From NCBI GenBank assembly GCA_023150835.1, contig JAKLKB010000080.1, positions 1-29,948 of the forward strand: a stretch of 29,948 nucleotides of DNA, written 5' to 3'. Shown in pieces: positions 883-15,574 of this stretch. The translations under genes were made by a program, and so were the position numbers. A model generated the notes under the pieces. That model saw only the letters and a list, made by a program, of their open reading frames with translations, ran no database searches and was not told the DNA's origin. The first letter of the stretch is position 1. Every line of letters begins with the position of its first letter. The DNA is from Myxococcota bacterium. GTDB taxonomy: Bacteria > Myxococcota_C > UBA6777.

Positions 883-2265
883 ATGAAGAAGCGAGATTTG
901 GCGGGTCGTCATGTGTTGGTGTGGGGGTTGCGAAAGACGGGGTTGGCGGGGGCGCGTTTTTTGTTGCGTCGAGGAGCGCGGGTGACGGTGGTTGCCTCGG
1001 GTGATGCGAGCGAATACAAGGAAGCGTTGGAGGCATTGAAGGATCAGTCGGTGTCTTTTTTGTGGGGGGATCGGATGGGATCGTGGGAAGGGATCGATGG
1101 AGTGCTGTTAAGTCCGGGAGTTCCGTATGATCGGCCTGAGTTAGAGCAAGCGCGTGAGTTGGGGATCGAGACGTTGTCGGAGATGGCGTGGGGGTTGTCG
1201 GAGTTGACGGTGCCTTGGGTGGGTGTGACGGGTTCAGCGGGCAAAAGCACGACGGTGTCTTGGGTGGGGGCGATGTTGGCGGCGTCGGGGCTGAGTGGGT
1301 TTGTGGGGGGGAATCTGGGGACGCCGCTGGTGTGTTTTTTGGATGAAGATCGGGCGGTGGATCGGGTGGTTTTGGAGTGTTCGAGTTTTCAGTTGGAAGC
1401 GACTCCCAACGCGCATCCGTGTGTGGGTGTGTTGACCAATCTTCAACCGAACCATCTGGATCGACATGGTACGATGGAGCGTTATGCAGCGTGCAAAGCG
1501 CCGTTGTTTGGGCATCTTGAGAAGGAGGATGCGTTGATCTTGTGCGGTGGGGAACCGAGTGTTTTGCCTGTGGTGCAGGAAAGTCGAGGGGAGCGGATCA
1601 CTTTTTGGAGGGAAGGAGAGGATGTGGAAGGAGCGATGTGTTGGGGAGAACAGATGATCTTGCGGCATCCGAGGTGGGGAGAGGAAGTGTATGATCTGCG
1701 GGGGATGCGTTTGCGCGGTGCGCACAATCGGGAGAATCTGATGGCGGCAGCGTTGGCGGCGCGTTGTGCGGGTGCGACAAAGGACGGGATACAGGCGGCG
1801 ATCGAGGGCTTTGGAGGACTGGCGCATCGTCAAGAAGAGTTGGGAGTTTGGCGTGGAGTGCGCTATGTCAACGACTCGAAGGCGACCACGCCCGATTCTG
1901 CGCTGCGAGCGGTGGAGGCGTGTGCAGAAAAAGGCGAGCGGCTACGTTTGTTGTTGGGGGGGCGCTCGAAAGGGACGGGCTTTTCGGGGTTGCGCGACGC
2001 GGTGTTGAGGGAGGTGGAGAAGTTGTATGTGTTTGGCGAGGCGCGGGCAGAGATCATGCGAGATCTGGGAGGTGTGGTGGAGACGGGAGAGTATGTTTCG
2101 ATGGAAGAAGCCTTGGACGCGGCGGCTTTGGACGCAAAGCAAGGGGAGATCGTGTTGTTAAGTCCGGCGTGTGCGTCATTTGATGCGTTTGAAAGTTTCG
2201 TGCATCGGGGCGAGGTGTTTGGCCGTTGGTTTCGGGCGTTGTGTTCGGGGTCGGTTGCGAAGTAG
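883..2265 (+). CDS. murD: UDP-N-acetylmuramoyl-L-alanine--D-glutamate ligase (MurD)
   Basis: Cytoplasmic peptidoglycan precursor enzyme. It adds D-glutamate to UDP-MurNAc-L-Ala using ATP. At 460 residues it has the normal family length. The ATG follows GAGGTGAT. The N-terminal Rossmann domain begins VLVWGLRKTG, and the next loop reads LLSPGVPYDRPE. The ATP-binding loop is VGVTGSAGKSTT, where many homologues have GTNGKST. The Mur central motif NLQPNHLDRHGTMERY is followed by the Lys-containing stretch YAACKAPL, expected to hold the carbamylated lysine. HNRENLMAA and YVNDSKATTPDSALRA mark the start of the C-terminal ligase domain, which ends with LLLGGRSKG and LLSPACASFDAFESF. It stands alone here, with no other division and cell-wall (dcw) genes beside it, and is followed by an unrelated kinase. 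The coding strand is strongly G-rich at third positions (TTG, GTG, GCG, GGG). Confidence 0.96.
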   Translation: MKKRDLAGRHVLVWGLRKTGLAGARFLLRRGARVTVVASGDASEYKEALEALKDQSVSFLWGDRMGSWEGIDGVLLSPGVPYDRPELEQARELGIETLSEMAWGLSELTVPWVGVTGSAGKSTTVSWVGAMLAASGLSGFVGGNLGTPLVCFLDEDRAVDRVVLECSSFQLEATPNAHPCVGVLTNLQPNHLDRHGTMERYAACKAPLFGHLEKEDALILCGGEPSVLPVVQESRGERITFWREGEDVEGAMCWGEQMILRHPRWGEEVYDLRGMRLRGAHNRENLMAAALAARCAGATKDGIQAAIEGFGGLAHRQEELGVWRGVRYVNDSKATTPDSALRAVEACAEKGERLRLLLGGRSKGTGFSGLRDAVLREVEKLYVFGEARAEIMRDLGGVVETGEYVSMEEALDAAALDAKQGEIVLLSPACASFDAFESFVHRGEVFGRWFRALCSGSVAK

Positions 2266-2393
2266 AGTGTAGCGGGTGTGTCGAGATCCGAGAACGCCCA
2301 TGCTTTCGAGCGGATGCCCATCGCGAAGTCGAGTATTGCGGGCATATCGAGTGTGTGGGTGGAACGTCGCAGCAAACGGGGAAGAAAAGAAGG

Positions 2394-4931
2394 ATGTCCG
2401 AGCAGAAAAACTGCCATGAAGTCGATTGTCCGGTACGTGGTCAGGGTTTGGCGGCAGCGAAGTTTTGCCCGAAGTGTGGCCGTTCGTTGCAGGCATCCGA
2501 GCAAGGGGCGGAAGATCCGTTGATTGGGGAAGTGATCGGGCAGCGTTATCGGATATTGCGGGTGATCGGGCGTGGTGGAATGGGGGTGGTGTACAAGGTG
2601 GAGCATATCGTCATGGGGAAGATCATGGCGATGAAGCTGCTGCATGGACACATCAACAATCGACAGAATGCGATCAAGCGTTTTCGCCAAGAGATCAAGA
2701 TCGTCTCGCGTTTGTCGCACGTGAACACGATCTCTGTGTTTGATTGCGGTGTGACGGCGGACGGAAACTTGTTCATCGTGATGGAGTATCTGCGAGGAAC
2801 CGACCTAGAGAGGTTGTTGGAGCACCAACAGTATCTCGGTTGTATCCGTGCAGCGCGGATCGCACGCCAGATCTGTGCATCGCTTGCAGAAGCCCATGAG
2901 ATCGGGATTATCCACCGCGATATCAAACCTGCGAACGTGATCTTGTTGCGAGACCGAGGGGCCGAAGACTTTGTGAAGGTGTTGGACTTTGGGATCGCGA
3001 AGCTACTCGAACCCGGCCAGAATATGGTGACAGAAGTCGGCTTGATCGTGGGGACGCCGTATTATATGTCTCCTGAACAGGCGATGGGACGGATGGATCT
3101 AGGTCCAGCGGTGGATATCTACAGCTTGGGGGTGGTGTTGTACGAGATGGTGGCGGGTCGGTTGCCTTTTTTGGGGGAGAACACCGCCGACTACATCCAC
3201 GCACATCTCAACATCGAACCTCCCAGACCATCAACAGTTTCGATGTTTCAGGATATCGATCGGGAACTGGACGAGTTGATTATGCAAGCGTTGCAAAAAG
3301 ACCAAAGGCGGCGCTTTGCGAGCATCGAAGCCATGCAATATGCTTTGGATAGGTATATTCACGGAACGCTTTCTCGGGGGCGTCAAGATTCTTTTGCTGT
3401 ATCGGGCGTTTTGGCGATGTCTCAAATTGCTCCGCTGGTGATCTTGGAGGAGCATTCGTCGAGCGGAGAGGTGGAGGCGGCTGGTGCTCAGGAGCGTACG
3501 GAGCTTCAGTCCGCAGAAAGCATTGAGCGGATGCAGCGCACCAAAGCAGCGGATGTTCGAGGAGGATCATCGAGTGATGGTGCTTCATCAAAGGTTGGAG
3601 TGGGAACAACACAGCCAAAAGCAGCGTTGAATGCAGCGGACGGACGGGGAGTCTCAGGGGGAAAGCCAAAAGCAGCGTTGGATACAGCGGATGGACAGGG
3701 AGTCTCAGGGGGAAAGCCAAAAGCAGCGTTGGATGCAGCGGATGGACGGGGGATATCGGACGTAGAGCCAAAAGCAGCGTTGGATGCAGCGGATGGGTAC
3801 GGTGTGTTGGGGGCGGCGGAAGGAGATCTTCAAAGCGCAGCTCGTCCAACGCAAGATCTGAAAGCAGCGGCTGGGAAAAAAAGCTCTCAAGCGTCGTTGG
3901 TTCCAGAAGTTCCGAGTTTGCCTGCGGCGTTGATCTCGGAGCCACCTGAAGAACAGTTGGCGACGCGGGCGGATTGGGAGCGTGTGGAGCGGGGTTGGCG
4001 GCGTTCGTATTGGTGGCAGACGTGGGGGGTGGTGTGGCTGTTGTTGTTGGTGGCGGTTGTTGGTGGCGGTTGGTGGGGATGGGAGCGTTGGACGGAGGTT
4101 CCTGTGCCTCGTGCGGCCTTTTACGACGAGGAACAAGAGAACAACAACACGATGGAGAAAGCGACACCGATCCGTCTGGGGGCGTGGGTGAAAGGTGAGT
4201 TGGGCCGTCGATTGAGCGAGACGTCGTCGGATCGCGATTGGTTTACGTTTGAGATCCCCGAAGGGAAGGCGCAAAGTGTCGCGATCCGTCTCCAGCCGCC
4301 TGCTGCGTTGGATGTGGAGTTGGGCCTGTATCGACAGCGCATCCGCCAAGAAGAGGGCAAGCGTGTGCGAGAACCCGAAGAGCTGATCTCGATCAACAAC
4401 GCACGACGGGGCGGAGAAGAGCGCTTGTTGGGTTATCGGTTGGAGGCGGGGCGTTATGAAGTGTTGGTGCGAGAGTTGGTGGTGATGGGCGAACCACCGC
4501 AAGAATACAAAGGAGCGTATCGTCTGCGCGTCGATCGGGTAGTGCTAGACAAGCACGCAGAGATCGAGCCAAACGATCAATTTGCTTTAGCGAATCGTGC
4601 GCCTGAAAAAGAGTTGGCGCGTGGATATCACGATCGGGCGGGCGATATCGACTTTTGGTATTTTGAGACCAAGAAAAAACAAGAGCAGCGGTATCGGCTG
4701 CGATTTTTTGGTGTGGCGGGTGTGACGGTGGATTTTGCGTTATTGGATGAGGGCGGACAGTCCTTGCGTTTTTGGGCGCGAAACAAGCGGATACGGCGCA
4801 AAGGAACCACCGCGATGTCGCTGCGAACCGATCTCTTTTTTTCGGCCAAAGGGCGGGTATTTGTGCGGATCTTGGCCAAAGAGGGCCACAACTTGGAGAT
4901 ACCGTATGCGATGCGTTTGATGGCGCGCTGA
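2394..4931 (+). CDS. transmembrane Ser/Thr protein kinase with zinc ribbon and PPC-like sensor domains
   Basis: An 845-residue eukaryotic-type kinase. The frame is open back to 2226, but the ATG at 2394 after GGGGAAGA avoids overlap with murD and starts just before a zinc ribbon (Cys7, Cys12, Cys25-x-x-Cys28). The kinase domain spans about residues 52-320: glycine loop GRGGMGVV, Lys81, HRDIKPAN (Asp176), DFG (Asp198) and GTPYYMSPEQ, so it should be active. Next is a low-complexity linker with four 17-residue repeats of the type PKAALDAADGRGVSGGK, then a Trp-flanked membrane helix at about 540-566. The outer part has two modules starting FYDEEQENNNTMEKA and EIEPNDQFALAN, each with a later DRDWFTF or DIDFWYF motif. 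This pattern resembles bacterial pre-peptidase C-terminal (PPC) beta-sandwich domains. It probably couples an envelope signal to cytoplasmic phosphorylation; the nearby FHA protein could read such marks (inference). Confidence 0.9.
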   Translation: MSEQKNCHEVDCPVRGQGLAAAKFCPKCGRSLQASEQGAEDPLIGEVIGQRYRILRVIGRGGMGVVYKVEHIVMGKIMAMKLLHGHINNRQNAIKRFRQEIKIVSRLSHVNTISVFDCGVTADGNLFIVMEYLRGTDLERLLEHQQYLGCIRAARIARQICASLAEAHEIGIIHRDIKPANVILLRDRGAEDFVKVLDFGIAKLLEPGQNMVTEVGLIVGTPYYMSPEQAMGRMDLGPAVDIYSLGVVLYEMVAGRLPFLGENTADYIHAHLNIEPPRPSTVSMFQDIDRELDELIMQALQKDQRRRFASIEAMQYALDRYIHGTLSRGRQDSFAVSGVLAMSQIAPLVILEEHSSSGEVEAAGAQERTELQSAESIERMQRTKAADVRGGSSSDGASSKVGVGTTQPKAALNAADGRGVSGGKPKAALDTADGQGVSGGKPKAALDAADGRGISDVEPKAALDAADGYGVLGAAEGDLQSAARPTQDLKAAAGKKSSQASLVPEVPSLPAALISEPPEEQLATRADWERVERGWRRSYWWQTWGVVWLLLLVAVVGGGWWGWERWTEVPVPRAAFYDEEQENNNTMEKATPIRLGAWVKGELGRRLSETSSDRDWFTFEIPEGKAQSVAIRLQPPAALDVELGLYRQRIRQEEGKRVREPEELISINNARRGGEERLLGYRLEAGRYEVLVRELVVMGEPPQEYKGAYRLRVDRVVLDKHAEIEPNDQFALANRAPEKELARGYHDRAGDIDFWYFETKKKQEQRYRLRFFGVAGVTVDFALLDEGGQSLRFWARNKRIRRKGTTAMSLRTDLFFSAKGRVFVRILAKEGHNLEIPYAMRLMAR
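3614..3817 (+). repeat. four 51-bp tandem repeats inside the kinase linker
   Basis: The string GCCAAAAGCAGCGTTG begins at 3614, 3665, 3716 and 3767, an exact 51-base period (17 codons). Units read approximately KAALDAADGRGVSGGKP, with scattered substitutions towards the last copy. Copy number could vary without breaking the frame, changing the distance between the kinase domain and the membrane helix. Confidence 0.9.
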
Positions 4932-5896: not shown

Positions 5897-6562
5897 TTAT
5901 TGAAATTCAACGCGTAGGAGTTGTTCGCCGATGATCAGGACATCGTTGTGTTTGAGGTGGTGTTCTTTGCGGATGCGGATGAAGGTTCCGTTGCGGCTGC
6001 CGAGGTCTTCGAGGGCGTACTGACCGTTGAGGAAAGAGATACGAGCGTGGATGGCGGAGATGTAGCGATCGCCCGGGAAGGTGATCTGCCCGCGTTCACG
6101 GCCCATGTCGACTTGTTCGCCGCCGAGCAAGATCGCGTTGCCGCGTTTTCCGCCAGAGATGAGCTGCATGACGCGGCCCCAGTATTGGCTATAAGGGCTT
6201 CCCCAAACAGGAGAAGGCGCGTCGGTGTGTGGATCAAAGCCGTCTTCATCGGGGGGAGGGGCTTGGATCTTTTCAAAGAGAAAAAGCTGTTTACCGATCA
6301 GCATGGCGTCGTTGTGTTCGAGGGGGGTTTTTTCACGAAGGCGGAGGAAAAGGCCATTGAGGCTGTTTTCATCGCGAACGGTCATGCTGTTGCTGGAGGT
6401 GCGTTGGAAGGTTGCGTGGAGGGGAGAGACATAGGGATCGTCGAGAAAGAGGATATTGCCTTGTTGGCGTCCGATGCGTGTGATATCCGGTTTGAGGGGA
6501 TAGGTGCCTCCTTCTTGGCCGTTGGGCAGAAGGAGGACAAGACGTGCTAGAGAATCGCTCAT
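5897..6562 (-). CDS. protein with two FHA domains
   Basis: A 221-residue soluble protein consisting almost only of two forkhead-associated domains, modules that bind phosphothreonine peptides. FHA1 (about residues 27-97) has TRIGRQQGN, the ligand loop SPLHA and NSLNG. FHA2 (about 150-220) has DMGRERGQ, SAIHA and SRNGT. The Gly-Arg, Ser-x-x-His and Asn-Gly signature residues are kept in both, so both should bind phosphopeptides. There is no signal peptide or membrane helix. The acidic Pro-rich linker (PPPDEDGFDPHTDAP) separates them. The ATG follows GAGGT about ten bases upstream. The window encodes two Ser/Thr kinases, whose products or substrates are natural candidate partners; this is inference from family knowledge. 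Confidence 0.93.
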   Translation of the reverse strand: MSDSLARLVLLLPNGQEGGTYPLKPDITRIGRQQGNILFLDDPYVSPLHATFQRTSSNSMTVRDENSLNGLFLRLREKTPLEHNDAMLIGKQLFLFEKIQAPPPDEDGFDPHTDAPSPVWGSPYSQYWGRVMQLISGGKRGNAILLGGEQVDMGRERGQITFPGDRYISAIHARISFLNGQYALEDLGSRNGTFIRIRKEHHLKHNDVLIIGEQLLRVEFQ

Positions 6563-6731: not shown

Positions 6732-8387
6732 TTAAGGGGCGTATCGTTTGATCTCGACTTCCGTGGGGCGGAAGACTTTGTCTTGGAATCGAAAGCCTTG
6801 GCGAAAGATGCGGGAGATCTGTTGATCTTCGTTGGTGTGTGGGGTGTGGACTTCTTGGAGAGCGCGGTGGGAGGTGGGGTCAAACAGATAGCTATGGATG
6901 TCGATGGGTTCGAGTCCCTGTTCTTTGAGGGTGGAGAGCAGACGTTCGCGGAATCCCGAAGCTTCGAGGACAGCGGGGTGATGTTCGCCGTGTGTATCCC
7001 AAAGCGATCGATAACGAAGGTCTACGTAGTCAAAGAGCAAGAGCAGATCTTGGAAGATCGCGTAGAGGGCTTGAAAGCGTGTTTCTTCGCGATCGGTGTC
7101 AAGCTCAGCGCGCAAGCGTTCGATGGATCGGCGGAGTTCGCTATTTTCTTCGTGTTGTTTTTGCGCGAGGGTGCGTTGTTCGGTTGCGATATCGAGGAGA
7201 TCGCGGAGTTGGGCTTGTTGTTCTGTGATGGATTGTCGAAGAGAGGCGATCGCGTGGTGGGTTTGTGGATCAAGGGGGGATTGGGGAGGTTGTGGGATGG
7301 GGGTGGTTGCGGTGTGTTCGTGAGAGGAAGCCTCGGTGGTTTCGTGGAGTTCGCGGCTATCGTGACTTGGGTGTGAAGGGTGGATAGCGCGGAGTTCGCG
7401 GCTATCGTGTATCGGGCGTGAAGGGGGGATGGCGCGGAGTTCGCGGCTGTCGTGTGCTGGACGTGAAGGGGGGGGTGTGGCGTGGAGTTCGCGGCTTGCG
7501 TGTGGGTCGTGGAGTCTGTTGGTGAGGGGGGCGTCGTGGTGGTGGAGTTGATGGAGTTCATCGTCGAGAAAGTTGGTGTCTGCATCACGGAGATCGTGTT
7601 CGTCGTAACTCAGGTCGTGTTCGCTGTAATGGTTTGAGAAGTCGGAGTCGTTGGTGGGGGAGGATTGTGCGTGGCTGTCGTAGGTGGGAGGGTCTTGTGT
7701 TTCGTCGGCGTAGGCTTGGAGATCGGGAGGCGTGTGGGATTCGACAGGGGAGATGGGGGCGCGCCCGAGGGTTGCAGCGAGGGGGGCGGGGATGGCGTTG
7801 GGAGCGGCATCTTGTTCGTTGACTTGGGGGGAAGGGACGACGAGGGGCTTTTTGGGCTGAGGAGGGGCGGGGAGGCGCGGGTTGGCGAGGGTTCGTTCGT
7901 TGGGTTCGGGGGAGAGGAGTGGGTGGTTGTAGAGCGGGAGATCGGGTTGAGGTGGGGGAATCTTGGGGTTGTTGGTTTGGTTGAGGATCTCTTGGACTTG
8001 GGGGGCATTTTGGATGTGCGAGACCACGCGCTTGCTTTGATCGGGATCTTGCATCTCTTTTTTGAGGATGTCGGGCAGTTGCATTCCGGGGATGGTATGT
8101 TCGGAAAACTCAGGCAATTCTTGTTGAAGAGACAGGGGCGTGCTTTGGGATCGATTCTTTTGTGGGATGGAGGCTTCTTCAAAGACACTTTGCCATTCAT
8201 CGGGCAGATCGGGGCTAGACGGCGATGCGGGGTGATTCGCGGCTCGCTTTGCCGCTGAAGGTTGCGGCGTGACGGGTTCAAGGCCGACAGGGATCATCTC
8301 ACCGTTTGGACCTTCTTCGAGCAAGATCTTTCGCCACTCGGTGGGAGCTTCTTGCACAGGATGATGATCGCGTTTTGGTTTGTTCAT
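6732..8387 (-). CDS. GrpE-domain protein with long repetitive N-terminal extension
   Basis: A 551-residue protein, far longer than ordinary GrpE (about 200). The last 170 residues match GrpE organisation: a coiled coil (RQSITEQQAQLRDLLDIATE... through RRSIERLRAELD), a helical part YAIFQDLLLLFDYVDL, then the beta-domain hallmarks LFDPTSHRALQEV, RIFRQGFRFQDKVFRP and TEVEI. GrpE releases ADP from DnaK, but this protein is probably a specialised relative because about 380 residues of Pro/His/Ser-rich disorder precede the domain. The extension includes four HDSREL-type repeats and a His/Asp-rich stretch (HHDAPL, HDLRDAD). No signal peptide or membrane helix is seen. ATG at 8387 follows GAGG. No dnaK or dnaJ lies in the window. 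Confidence 0.82.
   Translation of the reverse strand: MNKPKRDHHPVQEAPTEWRKILLEEGPNGEMIPVGLEPVTPQPSAAKRAANHPASPSSPDLPDEWQSVFEEASIPQKNRSQSTPLSLQQELPEFSEHTIPGMQLPDILKKEMQDPDQSKRVVSHIQNAPQVQEILNQTNNPKIPPPQPDLPLYNHPLLSPEPNERTLANPRLPAPPQPKKPLVVPSPQVNEQDAAPNAIPAPLAATLGRAPISPVESHTPPDLQAYADETQDPPTYDSHAQSSPTNDSDFSNHYSEHDLSYDEHDLRDADTNFLDDELHQLHHHDAPLTNRLHDPHASRELHATPPPSRPAHDSRELRAIPPSRPIHDSRELRAIHPSHPSHDSRELHETTEASSHEHTATTPIPQPPQSPLDPQTHHAIASLRQSITEQQAQLRDLLDIATEQRTLAQKQHEENSELRRSIERLRAELDTDREETRFQALYAIFQDLLLLFDYVDLRYRSLWDTHGEHHPAVLEASGFRERLLSTLKEQGLEPIDIHSYLFDPTSHRALQEVHTPHTNEDQQISRIFRQGFRFQDKVFRPTEVEIKRYAP
7346..7500 (-). repeat. four tandem 45-48-bp repeats in the GrpE-like gene
   Basis: The plus-strand string GGAGTTCGCGG starts at 7346, 7391, 7436 and 7484, so spacing is 45, 45 and 48 bases. 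On the coding strand each unit reads roughly HDSRELRAIPPSRP. The repeats stay in frame and sit within the disordered N-terminal part. Confidence 0.85.
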
Positions 8388-8836: not shown

Positions 8837-10765
8837 ATGGCGCAACAAACCGAAATGAACCTGCGTGCCTTGACAGAGCGGCTTCGAGAGAAAGCGCGGC
8901 GCAAGGTACCCGAAGCAGATGTCGAAGATCTCGTACAAGACGTGTTGGTCGTGTTGGTCGAAAAAGCACCGTCCAACCAGATCGGCGCAATCCAGCCCTA
9001 CGCAGAAGGGATCTTGCGCCATTTGATCTACGACTACTACCAAAAACGGGCCGAGCATAAGGTTCCTTTGGATGGCAAAGATGCGGAAAGCCTCGATGTC
9101 TCGCCAGAACAGCGGGTCTATTGGCAGCGTCATCTGCGTGTGGTGCGTGAGGTCTCTCAAGAAAACCCTGTGGACGAAGCACTCTTACACGAGCACTTTC
9201 TTTCGGGAGCGCCGTTGCGTGAGGTCGCTTCGGAGCTTGGCGTCTCTGCGGGAGTGGTCAACGGTCGGCTGTTTCGCTTTCGTCAAAAACTCTTGCAGCG
9301 CGTTGGACAGCTTTTCACCGTGAGTATGGCGCTGGGGGTGGGGCTATGGAGTCGGGCCAGTCGGGCGCTGTTTGTTGGACGCCTTCATCACGCGACTTCT
9401 TGGACGGTGGCTTTGTTGTCCGCCACGTCGGCGGGGACATGGTGGGCCCAACACACGCCTGAAAAGCAGCTTGTGTTTCCCTCCGCGATGCAGGCTTCCT
9501 CCGCTCGCTTCGAGCACAGCTCGATCACAAAGTACGAAGGACACCCCGCGTATCCATCCCTTTTCAAAAAAACCGAAACCTCGGCTGGATGGTCTCTTGC
9601 TGTTCGATCCGAATCCTCGATCTTTTTTCGTGGGCGATCCTCTGCTTCGGTCGGAGAATGGGGATGGTTCGGGGCTTATCCATCCGCACAGCCTCGCGAA
9701 TTATCCGCAGCTTCTGCATCTGCACTCACCTCTTCTCTAAATGCTCAAAACCCCCTTGCTTTGGCGAATTTCTTTTCGGGGGCTGCTTTGTTGGCGCAGT
9801 CTCGTGTCGCCCACAGTTCTCGCGTGGAATCGAACGATTCTTCCTTTGCGGTGGGTGGAGCCAACGCAGCAACTGGGCGCGATCTGCCCCAAGGCCGCAC
9901 AACGACTTCTCGCGACGGGCAATCTAGCGATCCCCACCATCCCAACACCCAAACCAAAGATCCAGCCTCCTCTCAGCAAGAACCCAAATCTTCTACAAAA
10001 GAACCACAAAACCCCAACAATCCGACCGATCCCAAACATCCGACCGATCCCAAACATCCGACAAATCCCAACCCATCCGATGCGCGCCAGTCCTTTTGCA
10101 TCAAGCGCGATGGGCGGCTCTATCGGTGCGATCAAGGCGGTCAACTCGGCGAAGATGTGAGCGGTGGGAACCAAAGCTCTTTCCAATGTGGCGGTGATAC
10201 TTCGTGCCGTCGGATGGTTAACGGCGAACAGGCGGGCGAGTCCCCTGTGGGTCCCGCACTCATCGTCGGCCAACAAAAAGCGCTGATCGTCGCGGGCGAA
10301 AACCGTTATCGTGAAAGTTATGATCAAGGGCGTTCATGGTCCGATCCCGAAACGCCCCCACAGCCCGATACTTTGTTGAAACAAGCTGTATTTGTTCTGA
10401 ACCAACGCGGGGAGATCTGGCAGCGCGATATCGCAAAGCAAACGTGGGCGTTGTTGCGCTCGGCCCACGAAAACACCGAACTGCGCGTCCATCTTGATGC
10501 GCGAGGTGGCTTGTGTTTTGAAGACTCCGTTGATTTTCGTTACGAAACCCGCATCCCGGGCATCGATCCTGTTGCCACTCCTCAACGTGGCGGTCTCAAC
10601 GCAGGCTCGGGCCTCAACGTACCAAAGATGCCGACACTTCGCCCCTTGCATATTCCCGATATCACACGTACCACCCTGCCTACACCCACCGAACTCCCGC
10701 AAGGATTGCCGCTCCCTCTTCCTGCGCCTCAAAAACAAATAACCATGCCCGTTTTGCCACACTGA
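8837..10765 (+). CDS. ECF-type sigma factor fused to hydrophobic segments and an Asp-box C-terminal region
   Basis: A 642-residue fusion. Residues 1-155 look like an ECF sigma-70: region 2 around DVEDLVQDVLVVLVEKAP and YAEGILRHLIYDYYQKR, and region 4 helix-turn-helix at about 127-154 (LREVASELGVSAGVVNGRLF). Normal ECF factors stop there (about 180-200 residues). Here two modest hydrophobic segments follow (about 159-171 and 187-205), then a Ser/Ala-rich stretch, a Pro/Asn/Thr linker with the repeat PTDPKH, and a C-terminal domain from about 415. That domain has CIKRDGRLYRC, FQCGGDTSCRR and a single Asp-box-like motif SYDQGRSW (Asp496), typical of beta-propeller blades. If one hydrophobic segment crosses the membrane, the sensor is outside and the sigma part is tethered inside. 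The ATG follows AGGATAGGG. A lipoprotein gene and lon follow closely in the same direction. Topology is uncertain. Confidence 0.85.
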   Translation: MAQQTEMNLRALTERLREKARRKVPEADVEDLVQDVLVVLVEKAPSNQIGAIQPYAEGILRHLIYDYYQKRAEHKVPLDGKDAESLDVSPEQRVYWQRHLRVVREVSQENPVDEALLHEHFLSGAPLREVASELGVSAGVVNGRLFRFRQKLLQRVGQLFTVSMALGVGLWSRASRALFVGRLHHATSWTVALLSATSAGTWWAQHTPEKQLVFPSAMQASSARFEHSSITKYEGHPAYPSLFKKTETSAGWSLAVRSESSIFFRGRSSASVGEWGWFGAYPSAQPRELSAASASALTSSLNAQNPLALANFFSGAALLAQSRVAHSSRVESNDSSFAVGGANAATGRDLPQGRTTTSRDGQSSDPHHPNTQTKDPASSQQEPKSSTKEPQNPNNPTDPKHPTDPKHPTNPNPSDARQSFCIKRDGRLYRCDQGGQLGEDVSGGNQSSFQCGGDTSCRRMVNGEQAGESPVGPALIVGQQKALIVAGENRYRESYDQGRSWSDPETPPQPDTLLKQAVFVLNQRGEIWQRDIAKQTWALLRSAHENTELRVHLDARGGLCFEDSVDFRYETRIPGIDPVATPQRGGLNAGSGLNVPKMPTLRPLHIPDITRTTLPTPTELPQGLPLPLPAPQKQITMPVLPH

Positions 10766-10797
10766 TCCGTTTGTGACCCGTTTCTTCGGAGGTTTGA

Positions 10798-11808
10798 ATG
10801 CGTTCTGTTCGCTTTCTTTGTGTTGCTTTTTTGCTGATCTCTTCGCTCACGTGGGGGTGTGAAGGATGCGAGATCCAAGAAGCCTCCACCACACTCAAGG
10901 TTCCCTTTGCAGACAACTTCGATCGCCCTTCGCTTGGGGCGATGTGGTCCTCGGAGATGGCGGGGCGTTGGCGGATCCAGTTCGACGAGCGCACCAAACA
11001 GGGTCGCTTGTGTGTCGAGCAAGCCCGCAACAATCCCTTGTTTTTGCGCGGGACGTTGCCTCGTGATGTCGTCGTTGAGTTCGATGCTTACGCACAAGAA
11101 AAAGACGGCGATGTCAAGATCGAGCTGTTTACAGATGGTCGCTTTCATGCCACAGGCTACGTTCTGGCTCACGGCGGCTGGCACAACGCGATGTCGATCA
11201 TCGATCGACTCGGTGAACACAACCGCGACTGTTCCGCCAAAGAGCAAAATGCCCGCGCCAACTGCCGCCGCTGGACGCGCCGCGAAAAAGTCATCATCGG
11301 AAAAGGCCATCACTGGAAGGTGATCCGTCATGGTGAAAAGCTGCTGTGGTATCTTGATGGCAAGCTGTTTATGCGTTATGACGATCCCCAACCCCTCGAA
11401 GGAAAAGGCCATCAGTTCTTCGCCTTCAGCAACTGGATCGCTCACGTCTGCTTTGATAATCTGACCATCCGACCCTACACTCCCGAAACAGCACAAAAAG
11501 AAGCCCCTGCTCCGTCTCCTGCTCGTGTTCTCGTTACGCCTTCTCCAACTCCCGTCCCTTCGACTCCTTCTGATCCTGCTTCTTCTGATCCTGCTCCTTC
11601 TGATCCTGCGCCGGCTTTTGTTGCGCCGTCCGCTGTTCGCTCGGGCGCGGTCTTGGTTCCTGCTCAGCCGCAGATCCGCGTCCAGTCCAATCCGCAGCCT
11701 CTTCGCTTGCACAATGCGGATCGTTTTCGGCACCTTGGCATCCAACGCTTGCAAACCCCTCTCCAAGCGCGACCTGCACTGCAAGCACAACCGACTCCCC
11801 AGCGCTAA
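10798..11808 (+). CDS. putative lipoprotein with concanavalin-like (jelly-roll) domain
   Basis: A 336-residue protein starting at ATG after GGAGG. The signal peptide MRSVRFLCVAFLLISSLTWGC gives lipidated Cys21. The mature part (about 30-230) starts FADNFDRPSLGAMW and contains VVVEFDAYAQEKDGDVKIELF, a GHHWKVIRHGEKLLWYLDGKLF strand pair and a late FSNWIAHVCFDNLTI strand. This pattern is common in glycan-binding or hydrolase-associated concanavalin-like folds, but I see no sure catalytic residues. The last 100 residues are Pro/Ser/Gln-rich (SDPAPSDPAPAF) and probably disordered. It lies 32 bases after the sigma fusion and 69 before lon, so the three may be one operon. It could be an envelope partner of the sigma fusion; that is inference. 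Confidence 0.8.
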   Translation: MRSVRFLCVAFLLISSLTWGCEGCEIQEASTTLKVPFADNFDRPSLGAMWSSEMAGRWRIQFDERTKQGRLCVEQARNNPLFLRGTLPRDVVVEFDAYAQEKDGDVKIELFTDGRFHATGYVLAHGGWHNAMSIIDRLGEHNRDCSAKEQNARANCRRWTRREKVIIGKGHHWKVIRHGEKLLWYLDGKLFMRYDDPQPLEGKGHQFFAFSNWIAHVCFDNLTIRPYTPETAQKEAPAPSPARVLVTPSPTPVPSTPSDPASSDPAPSDPAPAFVAPSAVRSGAVLVPAQPQIRVQSNPQPLRLHNADRFRHLGIQRLQTPLQARPALQAQPTPQR

Positions 11809-11877
11809 CCGACCCACACCACGCAAGCCCATTCACGGCAAGGTGTCCTGCTTTGATCAGACCGACGAGGTGGTCAC

Positions 11878-14376
11878 TTGAAATTCTTCGATGATGACGG
11901 AAAAAAAGGATGGTTTGAACGTGGCCGCAACCGACCGCGTATCCGCGAAGAACTGCCGATCTTGCCTCTCCGCAACACGGTGATCTATCCCGGCGTGGTG
12001 ATCCCACTCACCATTGGCCGCGAATCCAGCCTACGCCTTGTGGACGATGCCATCGAAGCCGATCGCATCATCGGTATCGTCGGGCAACGCGATCCTGATG
12101 TCGATGATCCCGATAGCAGCGAACTCTACAGCATGGGGACTGCCGCGCAGATCTTGCGTGTGATGAAGGTCAGTGAAGATTCCAAAAATCTGATCGCTCA
12201 TGTCCAAGGGCTGCAACGCCTTCGCGTCGTTCGCTATGTTCAACGACGCCCCTATCTTCGGGCTCGTGTGCAACTTATCGAAGAGCGCCCCGACGAAGAT
12301 ATCGAATCCCGCACGCTTTTCTCTTCTCTCCAAGAATCCGCTTTGCGGATCATCGAGCTTTCTCCGCACATCCCCCAAGAAGTCTCCGCTGTCGTCCAAA
12401 ATATGGAGTCCCCGGGCTACCTCGCCGATCTCGTGGCCGCTTATCTCAACATCCCCATGCCCGAAAAAGAAGAGATCCTCGAAACCGTCGAGATCAAGCC
12501 CCGTCTCCAAAAGGTTCTCGGCTTTGTGCGAAAAGAGCTTCAAATGTTGGAACTCAACTTCCGCATCCAAAACCAAGTCAAGGGCGAATTGGACAAAAGC
12601 CAACGCGAGTACTATCTGCGCAAGCAGTTAAAAGCCATCAAGAAAGAGCTTGGCGAAGAAGAAGATGAGATGGAGGAAGTCGACGAATTCCGCCGCCAGA
12701 TCAAAGCCGCCAAGATGCCCGAAGATGTCGAGAAAGAAGCCCTCAAAGAACTCACGCGACTTTCGCGTATCCCCCCACAATCTGCCGAGTATACGGTCTC
12801 TCGGACCTACATCGAATGGATGATCGATCTGCCTTGGTCTGTGACGACCGAAGATTCCCTTGAGATCAGGCGCGCACGCGAGATCCTCAACGAAGATCAT
12901 TACAGCCTCGACAAGATCAAGCGACGGATCTTGGAGTACCTCGCCGTGCGTAAACTCAAAAATGATATGCGTGGGCCGATCTTGTGCTTTGTTGGGCCTC
13001 CCGGGGTCGGCAAGACCTCGCTTGGCAAATCGATTGCGCGGGCGATGGGACGGAACTTTGTGCGCGTTGCGCTTGGCGGCGTCAAAGACGAAGCCGAGAT
13101 CCGTGGACATCGCCGAACCTATGTCGGCGCTCTGCCCGGACGTGTGATCCAAGGCATCAAAAAAGCCAAAAGCAACAACCCTGTCTTTGTCTTGGACGAG
13201 ATCGACAAACTCAGCCAAGACTTTCGCGGTGATCCCGCCTCCGCTCTGCTCGAAGTCCTTGATCCCGAACAAAACAACTCTTTCTCCGATCACTACCTCG
13301 AAGCCGCTTTCGATCTCTCCAAAGTGATGTTTATCGCCACCGCCAACCAACTTGAACCGATCCCTCCGCCCCTGCGCGACCGCATGGAGATTATCGAGAT
13401 CCCCGGATACACCGAAGAAGAAAAACTACACATCGCTGACCATTTCTTGATCCCCAAACAACACCGCGATCACGGCCTCCAAGACGGCCACATTACCTTT
13501 ACCAAAAAAGCCGTCCGTACCGTCTGCCGCGCCTACACCCGCGAAGCAGGCGTCCGAAACCTCGAACGCCAGATCGCCGCGATCTGTCGAGCCGTGGCGA
13601 TGCAAGTCGCCGAATCCAACACCGAACCTCGCACCGTCGACAGCGCCGATGTTGAAACCTACCTCGGCCCCGCCAAGTTTTTCTCCGAGATGTCCGAACG
13701 ATTGAACGAAACGGGCATCGCTACGGGCCTTGCGTGGACGGCGGCAGGCGGAGAACTGCTGTTTATCGAAGCTACCCGCATGATCGGCAAAGGCCAATTG
13801 ATCTTGACTGGCCAACTCGGCGACGTGATGAAAGAATCCGCCCAAGCTGCCCTCTCTTATATCCGCTCCAATGCTCCGCTGCTTGGCGTGGATGCACGCT
13901 TTATGGAAAATCACGATCTGCACATCCACGTCCCCGCTGGTTCCGTCCCCAAAGACGGACCGAGCGCGGGCGTCACGTTGTTTGCTGCCCTTGTTTCGCT
14001 GTTGACGAGTCGTAAAGTTCGCTCAGATGTCGCCATGACGGGCGAGATCACGCTGCGCGGTTCCGTCTTGCCTGTCGGCGGTATCAAAGAAAAGATCTTG
14101 GCGGCCCATCGCGCCGACGTCAAAGTGATCTTGTTGCCCGACAAAAACAAAAAAGACCTCGCCGAAGTCCCCGAAGAGATCAAAGCACAGATCCAATTCC
14201 ACTTTCTCCAGCACCTTGATGATGTGGTTCGCGAAGCCCTTGAACAACAATCCCCCGATACGCGGCCTCTTGCGCATGTCCTCCAACCCACCGACGGGAT
14301 GCCCGCTCTTGCCAGCGATCCCGAACCCCTCCCCAATCCCGATCCACCCCCAAAAAACAAAAGCGCCCGCCGCTAA
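11878..14376 (+). CDS. lon: ATP-dependent Lon protease
   Basis: An 832-residue LonA-type AAA+ serine protease that degrades damaged and regulatory proteins in the cytoplasm. The start is TTG at 11878, five bases after GAGGTGGT; the family's N-domain (LPILPLRNTVIYPGVVIPL) follows closely, which supports this start. The N-domain reaches about 210, and the coiled-coil region QREYYLRKQLKAIKKELGE precedes the AAA+ module. Walker A is GPPGVGKT (373-380) and Walker B VFVLDEIDK. The protease domain has the Ser-Lys dyad: Ser696 in KDGPSAGVT and Lys739 in GGIKEK, the 43-residue spacing known in E. coli Lon. The tail after about 800 is Pro-rich and basic and varies in the family. It ends 28 bases before the convergent site-2 protease gene. 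Confidence 0.97.
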   Translation: MKFFDDDGKKGWFERGRNRPRIREELPILPLRNTVIYPGVVIPLTIGRESSLRLVDDAIEADRIIGIVGQRDPDVDDPDSSELYSMGTAAQILRVMKVSEDSKNLIAHVQGLQRLRVVRYVQRRPYLRARVQLIEERPDEDIESRTLFSSLQESALRIIELSPHIPQEVSAVVQNMESPGYLADLVAAYLNIPMPEKEEILETVEIKPRLQKVLGFVRKELQMLELNFRIQNQVKGELDKSQREYYLRKQLKAIKKELGEEEDEMEEVDEFRRQIKAAKMPEDVEKEALKELTRLSRIPPQSAEYTVSRTYIEWMIDLPWSVTTEDSLEIRRAREILNEDHYSLDKIKRRILEYLAVRKLKNDMRGPILCFVGPPGVGKTSLGKSIARAMGRNFVRVALGGVKDEAEIRGHRRTYVGALPGRVIQGIKKAKSNNPVFVLDEIDKLSQDFRGDPASALLEVLDPEQNNSFSDHYLEAAFDLSKVMFIATANQLEPIPPPLRDRMEIIEIPGYTEEEKLHIADHFLIPKQHRDHGLQDGHITFTKKAVRTVCRAYTREAGVRNLERQIAAICRAVAMQVAESNTEPRTVDSADVETYLGPAKFFSEMSERLNETGIATGLAWTAAGGELLFIEATRMIGKGQLILTGQLGDVMKESAQAALSYIRSNAPLLGVDARFMENHDLHIHVPAGSVPKDGPSAGVTLFAALVSLLTSRKVRSDVAMTGEITLRGSVLPVGGIKEKILAAHRADVKVILLPDKNKKDLAEVPEEIKAQIQFHFLQHLDDVVREALEQQSPDTRPLAHVLQPTDGMPALASDPEPLPNPDPPPKNKSARR

Positions 14377-14404
14377 ACATCCAAAAATCAAATCATCCAA
14401 AAGA

Positions 14405-15574
14405 TTAAAGTGAAGGGGATCTTTGTTCGTCTTCCTCGTCCTCGACGCCCATCTTGCGGCTGAGAAATCGAACGAAGTCGGGCATCGCAAGTGTGCCGAT
14501 GTAGTGCTGATCTCGATCGAGTACAACAAGACGGCTGCTTTGTTGGCGATTCATTTGTGTGACGGCTTGGAGGGCGTCGCTTTCGCTGTCGATGGTCAGT
14601 TCGGGGGGACAAGGCTTGAGGAGCGCACGCAGCGTATTTCCGGGCCATTCGTGCGGATCGAGGGTGTAAAGGTCATCGACGTACACGCAACCTACGAGCG
14701 TTTGTGTGTGTGGATCGACGATCGGATAGAGGTCGTGCGATTCTTTTTCGACGTATTGCTCGAAAAATTGCTGTAGCGAAAGGGTGCTCGGCAAGCTGTC
14801 GTCGTGTTGTCGGATAAACGGGCGGATCGGCTCTCCACGCAATATCTCTCGCAAGCGCATCCGATGGTACGCCGCAACACTGGCGTTGCGCATAAAGATC
14901 CCCAGCAAAAACCACCAAAATGCTTGCACATAATTTTGATACGCAAACAGCTGGATCAGCGACAGCCCGACCATCAGCGAACCAAAACCGCCTCCAAGAT
15001 GGGCGGCGATCCGCGTGGCCCAAGGTAGATCGCCACGCCAAGACCATAGCAACGCCCGCAACATCCGCCCTCCATCAAGCGGAAAGGCTGGAATCAAGTT
15101 GAAGATCGCCAACAAGCCATTGAGCCAACCAAGATATCGGCACAGTCCCTCGACCGACTCGGGCCAGATCTGTTGGAGGCTCAACAGATAAAGGCCGTAG
15201 AATCCGCCTGCGAGCGCGAGGCTTGCCGCAGGGCCTGCCGCTGTCACCCAAAACTCCGCCCAAGCGTGCGGCGGTTCGTCCTCGATCTCCGCCACTCCGC
15301 CAAAGACAAACAGCGTAATGCTGCGGATCGAAAGCCCGTAGTGACGGGCCACCACCGCGTGCGCTAACTCGTGCAACAAGATCGACAGCACAAAGCCCAC
15401 CGTCCCCACGACCGCCATCCATGTGTACGTCTCGGCGGCCAGTTGCTCATACCAGTTCGGAAACAGCCCACGCGAAAGTGACCAACCCAACAACAAGATC
15501 AAAAACAACCAGCTAAAGTCGACTTGGATCGGGAAGCCCATCAGCCGAAAAAGAGTGATGCGTTTCGAGAACAT
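14405..15574 (-). CDS. site-2 protease (M50 family) with CBS domain pair
   Basis: A 389-residue intramembrane metalloprotease. The zinc motif HELAH is at 68-72 (Glu69 catalytic) in the second hydrophobic segment. The third ligand lies in NLIPAFPLDGGR (Asp167). Several hydrophobic segments, including FSWLFLILLLGWSL, TWMAVVGTVGFVLSILL, VTAAGPAASLALAGGFYGLYL and FWWFLLGIFM, make up the first 240 residues. The cytoplasmic C-terminus (about 248-378) has a CBS pair (YPIVDPHTQTLVGCVYVDDL and SRLVVLDRDQHYIGTLAMPDF), as in SpoIVFB-type enzymes where CBS domains bind nucleotides. These enzymes cleave membrane-bound anti-sigma factors or other tethered regulators. The tethered sigma fusion four kilobases away is a natural candidate substrate (inference). 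The tail is acidic. The ATG follows GGAAAG. Confidence 0.93.
   Translation of the reverse strand: MFSKRITLFRLMGFPIQVDFSWLFLILLLGWSLSRGLFPNWYEQLAAETYTWMAVVGTVGFVLSILLHELAHAVVARHYGLSIRSITLFVFGGVAEIEDEPPHAWAEFWVTAAGPAASLALAGGFYGLYLLSLQQIWPESVEGLCRYLGWLNGLLAIFNLIPAFPLDGGRMLRALLWSWRGDLPWATRIAAHLGGGFGSLMVGLSLIQLFAYQNYVQAFWWFLLGIFMRNASVAAYHRMRLREILRGEPIRPFIRQHDDSLPSTLSLQQFFEQYVEKESHDLYPIVDPHTQTLVGCVYVDDLYTLDPHEWPGNTLRALLKPCPPELTIDSESDALQAVTQMNRQQSSRLVVLDRDQHYIGTLAMPDFVRFLSRKMGVEDEEDEQRSPSL

Follow-up and report, generated by a model that had tools for sequence, protein, structure and literature searches.

A conserved and probably membrane-tethered one-piece ECF sigma factor encoded beside a lipoprotein gene and lon in a Myxococcota-like lineage

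Introduction

An ECF sigma factor that continues in one frame into hydrophobic segments and a large C-terminal domain, with a lipoprotein gene, lon and a site-2 protease gene at its side, raises the question of whether such a locus encodes a membrane-tethered sigma factor together with the means of its release. We addressed this question for a stretch of 29,948 nucleotides (hereafter the window) from a poorly known, Myxococcota-like lineage. The product of the sigma factor gene (8837–10765, + strand), here called SIG, has 642 amino acids and comprises an ECF sigma factor, a predicted membrane segment, a linker and a C-terminal domain. It is followed on the same strand by a lipoprotein gene (10798–11808) after a gap of 32 bases and, 69 bases further on, by lon (11878–14376). 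A gene for a site-2 protease of the M50 type with a CBS domain (14405–15574, − strand) lies convergently, 28 bases past lon, and a gene for a GrpE-domain protein (6732–8387, − strand) lies divergently upstream of SIG. An earlier note on this DNA, which had the coordinates and strands of SIG and the three genes downstream all right, proposed a possible self-contained module in which the site-2 protease acts as the dedicated releaser and the liberated sigma factor is later turned over by Lon.

Release of one-piece ECF sigma factors by proteolysis has precedents. IutY of Pseudomonas putida (ECF243) is activated by proteolysis and cleaved by Prc and RseP (PMC8999054), and proteolytic release has been proposed for ECF48, ECF52 and ECF53 (PMC8999054; PMC5826349). 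No description of a SIG-type fusion with lon was found in the open literature. We compared the locus across a phylum sample of five genomes, including that of the window, which belong to a single family and three genera.

Results

The N-terminus of SIG is an ECF-type sigma domain, a type marked by sigma-70 regions 2 and 4 without region 3, as the earlier note had read it. Residues 20–155 match the NCBIfam model TIGR02937 (sigma70-ECF) with 47.8 bits, above the model's cut-off of 42.9, and residues 23–153 align by phmmer with the solved SigE of M. tuberculosis (E 0.0017). Region 2 (8879–9052, residues 15–72; like all parts of SIG, on the + strand) matches PF04542 (E 2.4e-5) with a Pfam score of 24.5, barely above the cut-off of 24. 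Region 4 (9185–9292, residues 117–152) scores 16.5 and stays below its cut-off of 25.7 (PF08281 at E 0.0065 and PF04545 at E 0.1, both sub-threshold); the same block is mostly invariant in all five homologues. The full fusion is present in each of the five phylum genomes, so that the search for homologues suggested earlier returned four in addition to the window's own. Overall identity between genera is 34–37%, rising to 51–57% in the part that spans the sigma domain and the predicted helix, where long invariant blocks cover regions 2 and 4.

Two hydrophobic segments follow the sigma domain, within the residues 150–210 that had been singled out for a topology check. The first (9302–9361, residues 156–175) is short and conserved, with a GES hydrophobicity of 18 in the window and 18–29 across the five homologues; it is probably interfacial, and arginines 173, 176 and 182 lie at or just after it. 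The second (9389–9448, residues 185–204) is a predicted membrane helix, for which we relied on hydropathy scales, shuffled sequences and the positive-inside rule. Its GES value of 26.5 in the window is marginal, being matched by 2% of shuffled tails, and that of the same-genus homologue is similar (27.5). In the three homologues from the two other genera the helix stands at the same position with values of 37.8–41.6, which only 0.05–0.1% of shuffles match. A predicted helix after region 4, as in one-piece transmembrane ECF sigma factors, is thus present in 5/5 homologues, weakly so in the window's copy. Two to three lysines or arginines precede the helix and none to two follow it, which makes an orientation with the N-terminus inside and the C-terminus outside the better topology. 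We also considered a topology with two helices; it is less likely, as the arginines would then sit in a periplasmic loop.

The marginal hydrophobicity of the window's own helix would suit a soluble protein, in which the hydrophobic segments are no anchor and the C-terminal extension regulates the sigma domain within the cytoplasm, in the manner of ECF41 or CorE. We regard this as quite improbable, given that three divergent homologues show a clear helix in this position and that what lies beyond the helix looks extracytoplasmic. The linker (9464–10081, residues 210–415) is a long stretch of low complexity, in which proline, serine, threonine and alanine together make up 44–53% of residues 210–400 in all five homologues while the sequence itself is poorly conserved. 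It leads into a predicted all-beta domain (10082–10561, residues 416–575) with four invariant cysteines (421, 431, 451 and 457) and an Asp-box, SYDQGRSW (10316–10339, residues 494–501), whose pattern S-x-D-x-G-x-x-W is invariant in 5/5 homologues. Four invariant cysteines, an Asp-box and a Pro/Ser/Thr-rich linker fit an extracytoplasmic C-terminus.

The C-terminal domain was modelled by AlphaFold2 as all-beta (pLDDT 79, pTM 0.80). A search for a known fold gave a best Foldseek E of 0.03 and a best VIA-align Z of 3.6, with hits scattered among propeller-blade, lectin and jelly-roll structures, including sortilin and YCF48; since no solved structure matches well, we claim no fold. Profile searches yielded hints of sialidase Asp-boxes (E 0.008–0.03), with BNR/Asp-box hints in the C-terminal domains of three of the five homologues. 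Pfam had no match to this domain in the window's SIG when a carbohydrate-binding module like that of ECF52 was sought. We describe the modelled C-terminus as a small beta domain with an Asp-box and claim nothing further. The earlier description of a C-terminus containing cysteines and an Asp-box holds; the Asp-box is single rather than repeated.

No room for a built-in inhibitor is apparent between the sigma domain and the membrane. The spacer from region 4 to the predicted helix has about 31 residues, and neither a zinc-finger domain in this interval nor a FecR-like anti-sigma part anywhere in SIG gave a Pfam match at E values up to 1, which sets SIG apart from the IutY type (ECF243). The first cysteine of the window's SIG is residue 421, and a zinc finger of the ECF52, ECF53 or ECF48 kind is not present. 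A separate anti-sigma gene was not recognised beside SIG either. The earlier proposal of a sigma factor tethered within one polypeptide and lacking a separate anti-sigma factor is thus supported, and the short spacer together with the missing zinc-finger and FecR matches suggests that the membrane tether itself probably inhibits.

Beyond the phylum, a profile of the sigma-plus-helix part found nothing in 386 genomes except one weak protein (G188, L075:7146–8612, − strand; E 6e-9). Like SIG, this protein joins a sigma domain to a hydrophobic segment, beyond which about 290 residues follow; unlike SIG, it belongs to another phylum and shows no match to the SIG C-terminus, and the 16 kb read around it hold no lipoprotein or lon homologue. 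The full-length profile had no match in 195 genomes from the phylum of genome G032, a set that contains no positive control, and the sigma-plus-helix alignment profile had none in the PDB. Other ECF sigma factors with long frames in the window's phylum were considered as SIG homologues and set aside because their architectures differ. One of them, in genome G003 (L077:2150–3937, + strand), runs in frame from an ECF sigma domain into some 400 further residues that partly resemble the nucleotide-binding domain of F-type ATP synthase alpha/beta subunits (PF00006, E 2.4e-6, barely below the cut-off). Another, in G004 (L078:2435–3766, + strand), carries about seven hydrophobic segments in frame after the sigma domain.

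The lipoprotein–lon neighbourhood of SIG is firm. The order SIG, lipoprotein gene, lon on a single strand, with the GrpE-domain gene divergent upstream, recurs in 5/5 phylum genomes, with gaps of about 32–140 bases between SIG and the lipoprotein gene and of 41–216 bases between the latter and lon. Wider synteny includes the GrpE-domain gene in all five genomes, an FHA-domain gene in four and the protein kinase gene in G003; additional window genes also follow lon in G004. Since the GrpE and FHA genes share this synteny, the SIG–lipoprotein–lon order supports a functional unit and does not prove one; taken alone, it is weak evidence. The regions preceding SIG in four independent genomes were searched for a shared ECF-type promoter and yielded no common bipartite word, a result that shows little because these regions align poorly. 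On the far side of SIG, the GrpE-domain protein has an N-terminus of low complexity of about 380 residues. Further upstream, the Ser/Thr protein kinase gene (2226–4931, + strand; PF00069, E 1.3e-52) lies near a twin FHA-domain protein gene (5897–6562, − strand), in an area that is partly syntenic in G003.

The lon product is a genuine Lon by its score against TIGR00763 (996.5 bits), with intact Walker A and catalytic Ser/Lys motifs. Across the phylum the copies at this locus share 69–98% identity with that of the window, and all five, the window's included, begin with TTG. Each phylum genome holds about three full-length lon paralogues.

The lipoprotein has a conserved signal peptide, an invariant Cys21 and a Pro-rich C-terminus. 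Its domain matches PF06439, the 3-keto-disaccharide hydrolase family, in eight of nine relatives (best E 3.6e-7), with weaker hints of galectin and levanase; the match of the window's own copy remains below the cut-off. From the names of these matched families we infer a jelly roll of the sugar-binding type; the predicted structure (pLDDT 47) is too poor to use. Eight genomes from other phyla encode more distant relatives, one of which is a weak match (E 3.6e-4); in the seven neighbourhoods that were read, neither lon nor SIG has a match beside them.

Conservation decides differently for the site-2 protease. The protein itself appears intact, with a Peptidase_M50 match (E 4e-23), one CBS match and the motifs HELAH and NLIPAFPLDGG. 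Its orthologue (93% identity) stands beside lon in only one further genome, G001, of the same genus, g1, as the window, i.e., in 2/5 genomes. In G003 a gene for an MFS-spermidine-synthase protein directly follows lon, and in the window the same gene comes after the site-2 protease, which indicates that the protease gene was gained or lost between the two. In G004 it is absent from the 5 kb that were read downstream of lon, and the G002 contig stops 1.3 kb past lon. At other places in these genomes, the closest further matches reach 36–40% over the core only. As the fusion persists in G003 and G004 without an adjacent site-2 protease, this neighbour is not needed for it.

We therefore rejected the adjacent protease as a dedicated partner of SIG, and it is probably an incidental neighbour outside the system. 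The refuting condition set in the earlier note, that homologues of the fusion never occur near the site-2 protease or lon, gives a divided outcome: lon stands beside them in 5/5 genomes and the protease in 2/5. The full model of a dedicated CBS site-2 protease followed by Lon turnover of the freed sigma factor draws on two intact genes that stand side by side both in the window and in G001, and we now consider it highly improbable: besides its restriction to one genus, the protease gene is convergent rather than co-directional, and the lon at this locus has about two further paralogues in each genome. Several M50 proteases are encoded in each of the five phylum genomes, some scoring far better in the M50 family, so that a site-2 protease may still be the releaser, though the locus is not self-contained.

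Discussion

SIG is real and conserved, and most likely represents a variant form of one-piece transmembrane ECF sigma factor; our favoured reading, which we hold with somewhat better than even confidence, is that it is released by general cellular proteases. The sigma domain would lie on the cytoplasmic side, anchored to the inner membrane through one helix, with the linker crossing the periplasm. The four-cysteine beta domain may sense some state of the envelope, perhaps in concert with the adjacent sugar-binding-like lipoprotein. A signal would then trigger proteolysis within or close to the membrane helix, by a periplasmic site-1 protease and subsequently by one of the M50 site-2 proteases that all five genomes encode, and the freed sigma domain would turn on a regulon that plausibly includes the downstream lipoprotein gene and lon. 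Proteolytic release is what we infer from the known one-piece ECF sigma factors, IutY and ECF48/52/53, which are released in this way or are proposed to be, and release by general proteases is most likely the most economical switch for SIG. No cleavage site and no dedicated protease can be named.

An alternative is that SIG acts uncleaved in the membrane in the manner of ToxR or CadC, the sensor altering its conformation or oligomeric state so that RNA polymerase is recruited to the membrane. The lack of an inhibitory domain in the spacer that leads from region 4 to the helix would agree with such a mode, and the conserved hydrophobic stretch after region 4 could place the sigma domain at the membrane. 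Yet a sigma factor must accompany RNA polymerase to promoters, and membrane tethering hampers this travel. Moreover, IutY, the one-piece ECF sigma factor that has been tested experimentally, is cleaved (PMC8999054). We consider the uncleaved mode unlikely and retain release by general proteases as the preferred reading. A more ambitious version, in which the locus forms a signalling unit kept in all five genomes, made up of a transmembrane sigma factor that lacks any anti-sigma factor and bears a four-Cys/Asp-box outer sensor, a partner lipoprotein reading envelope glycans and a dedicated lon paralogue as off-switch or main output, is conceivable and in our view doubtful.

Among described systems, ECF52 (SCO4117 of Streptomyces coelicolor) resembles SIG in combining an ECF domain, a helix, a Pro-rich linker and an extracytoplasmic C-terminal domain in one polypeptide (PMC5826349). 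It differs in its zinc-finger anti-sigma-like domain before the helix and in being described as exclusive to Actinobacteria, and it ends in a carbohydrate-binding module (PMC5826349); SIG lacks the zinc finger, ends in a small predicted Asp-box beta domain that may differ from such a module, and has the sugar-binding-like domain on a separate lipoprotein. In IutY, too, a membrane segment links the sigma factor with its regulator in one protein (PMC8999054), but there the regulator is a membrane-bound anti-sigma factor of the kind used in iron cell-surface signalling, and SIG has no FecR-like match. Planctomycete ECF sigma factors share with SIG a C-terminal domain of the beta-repeat kind (PMC8567305); theirs carry multiple WD40 repeats, in contrast to the single Asp-box and the small beta domain of SIG, for which there is no good solved-fold match.

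SIG would extend the theme of ECF52 and IutY to another lineage and introduces no new principle. The described tethered ECF sigma factors retain an anti-sigma-like inhibitory domain; if SIG is inhibited by its membrane tether alone, it would show transmembrane sigma signalling at its simplest, and the conserved adjacent lon would link envelope sensing with protein quality control.
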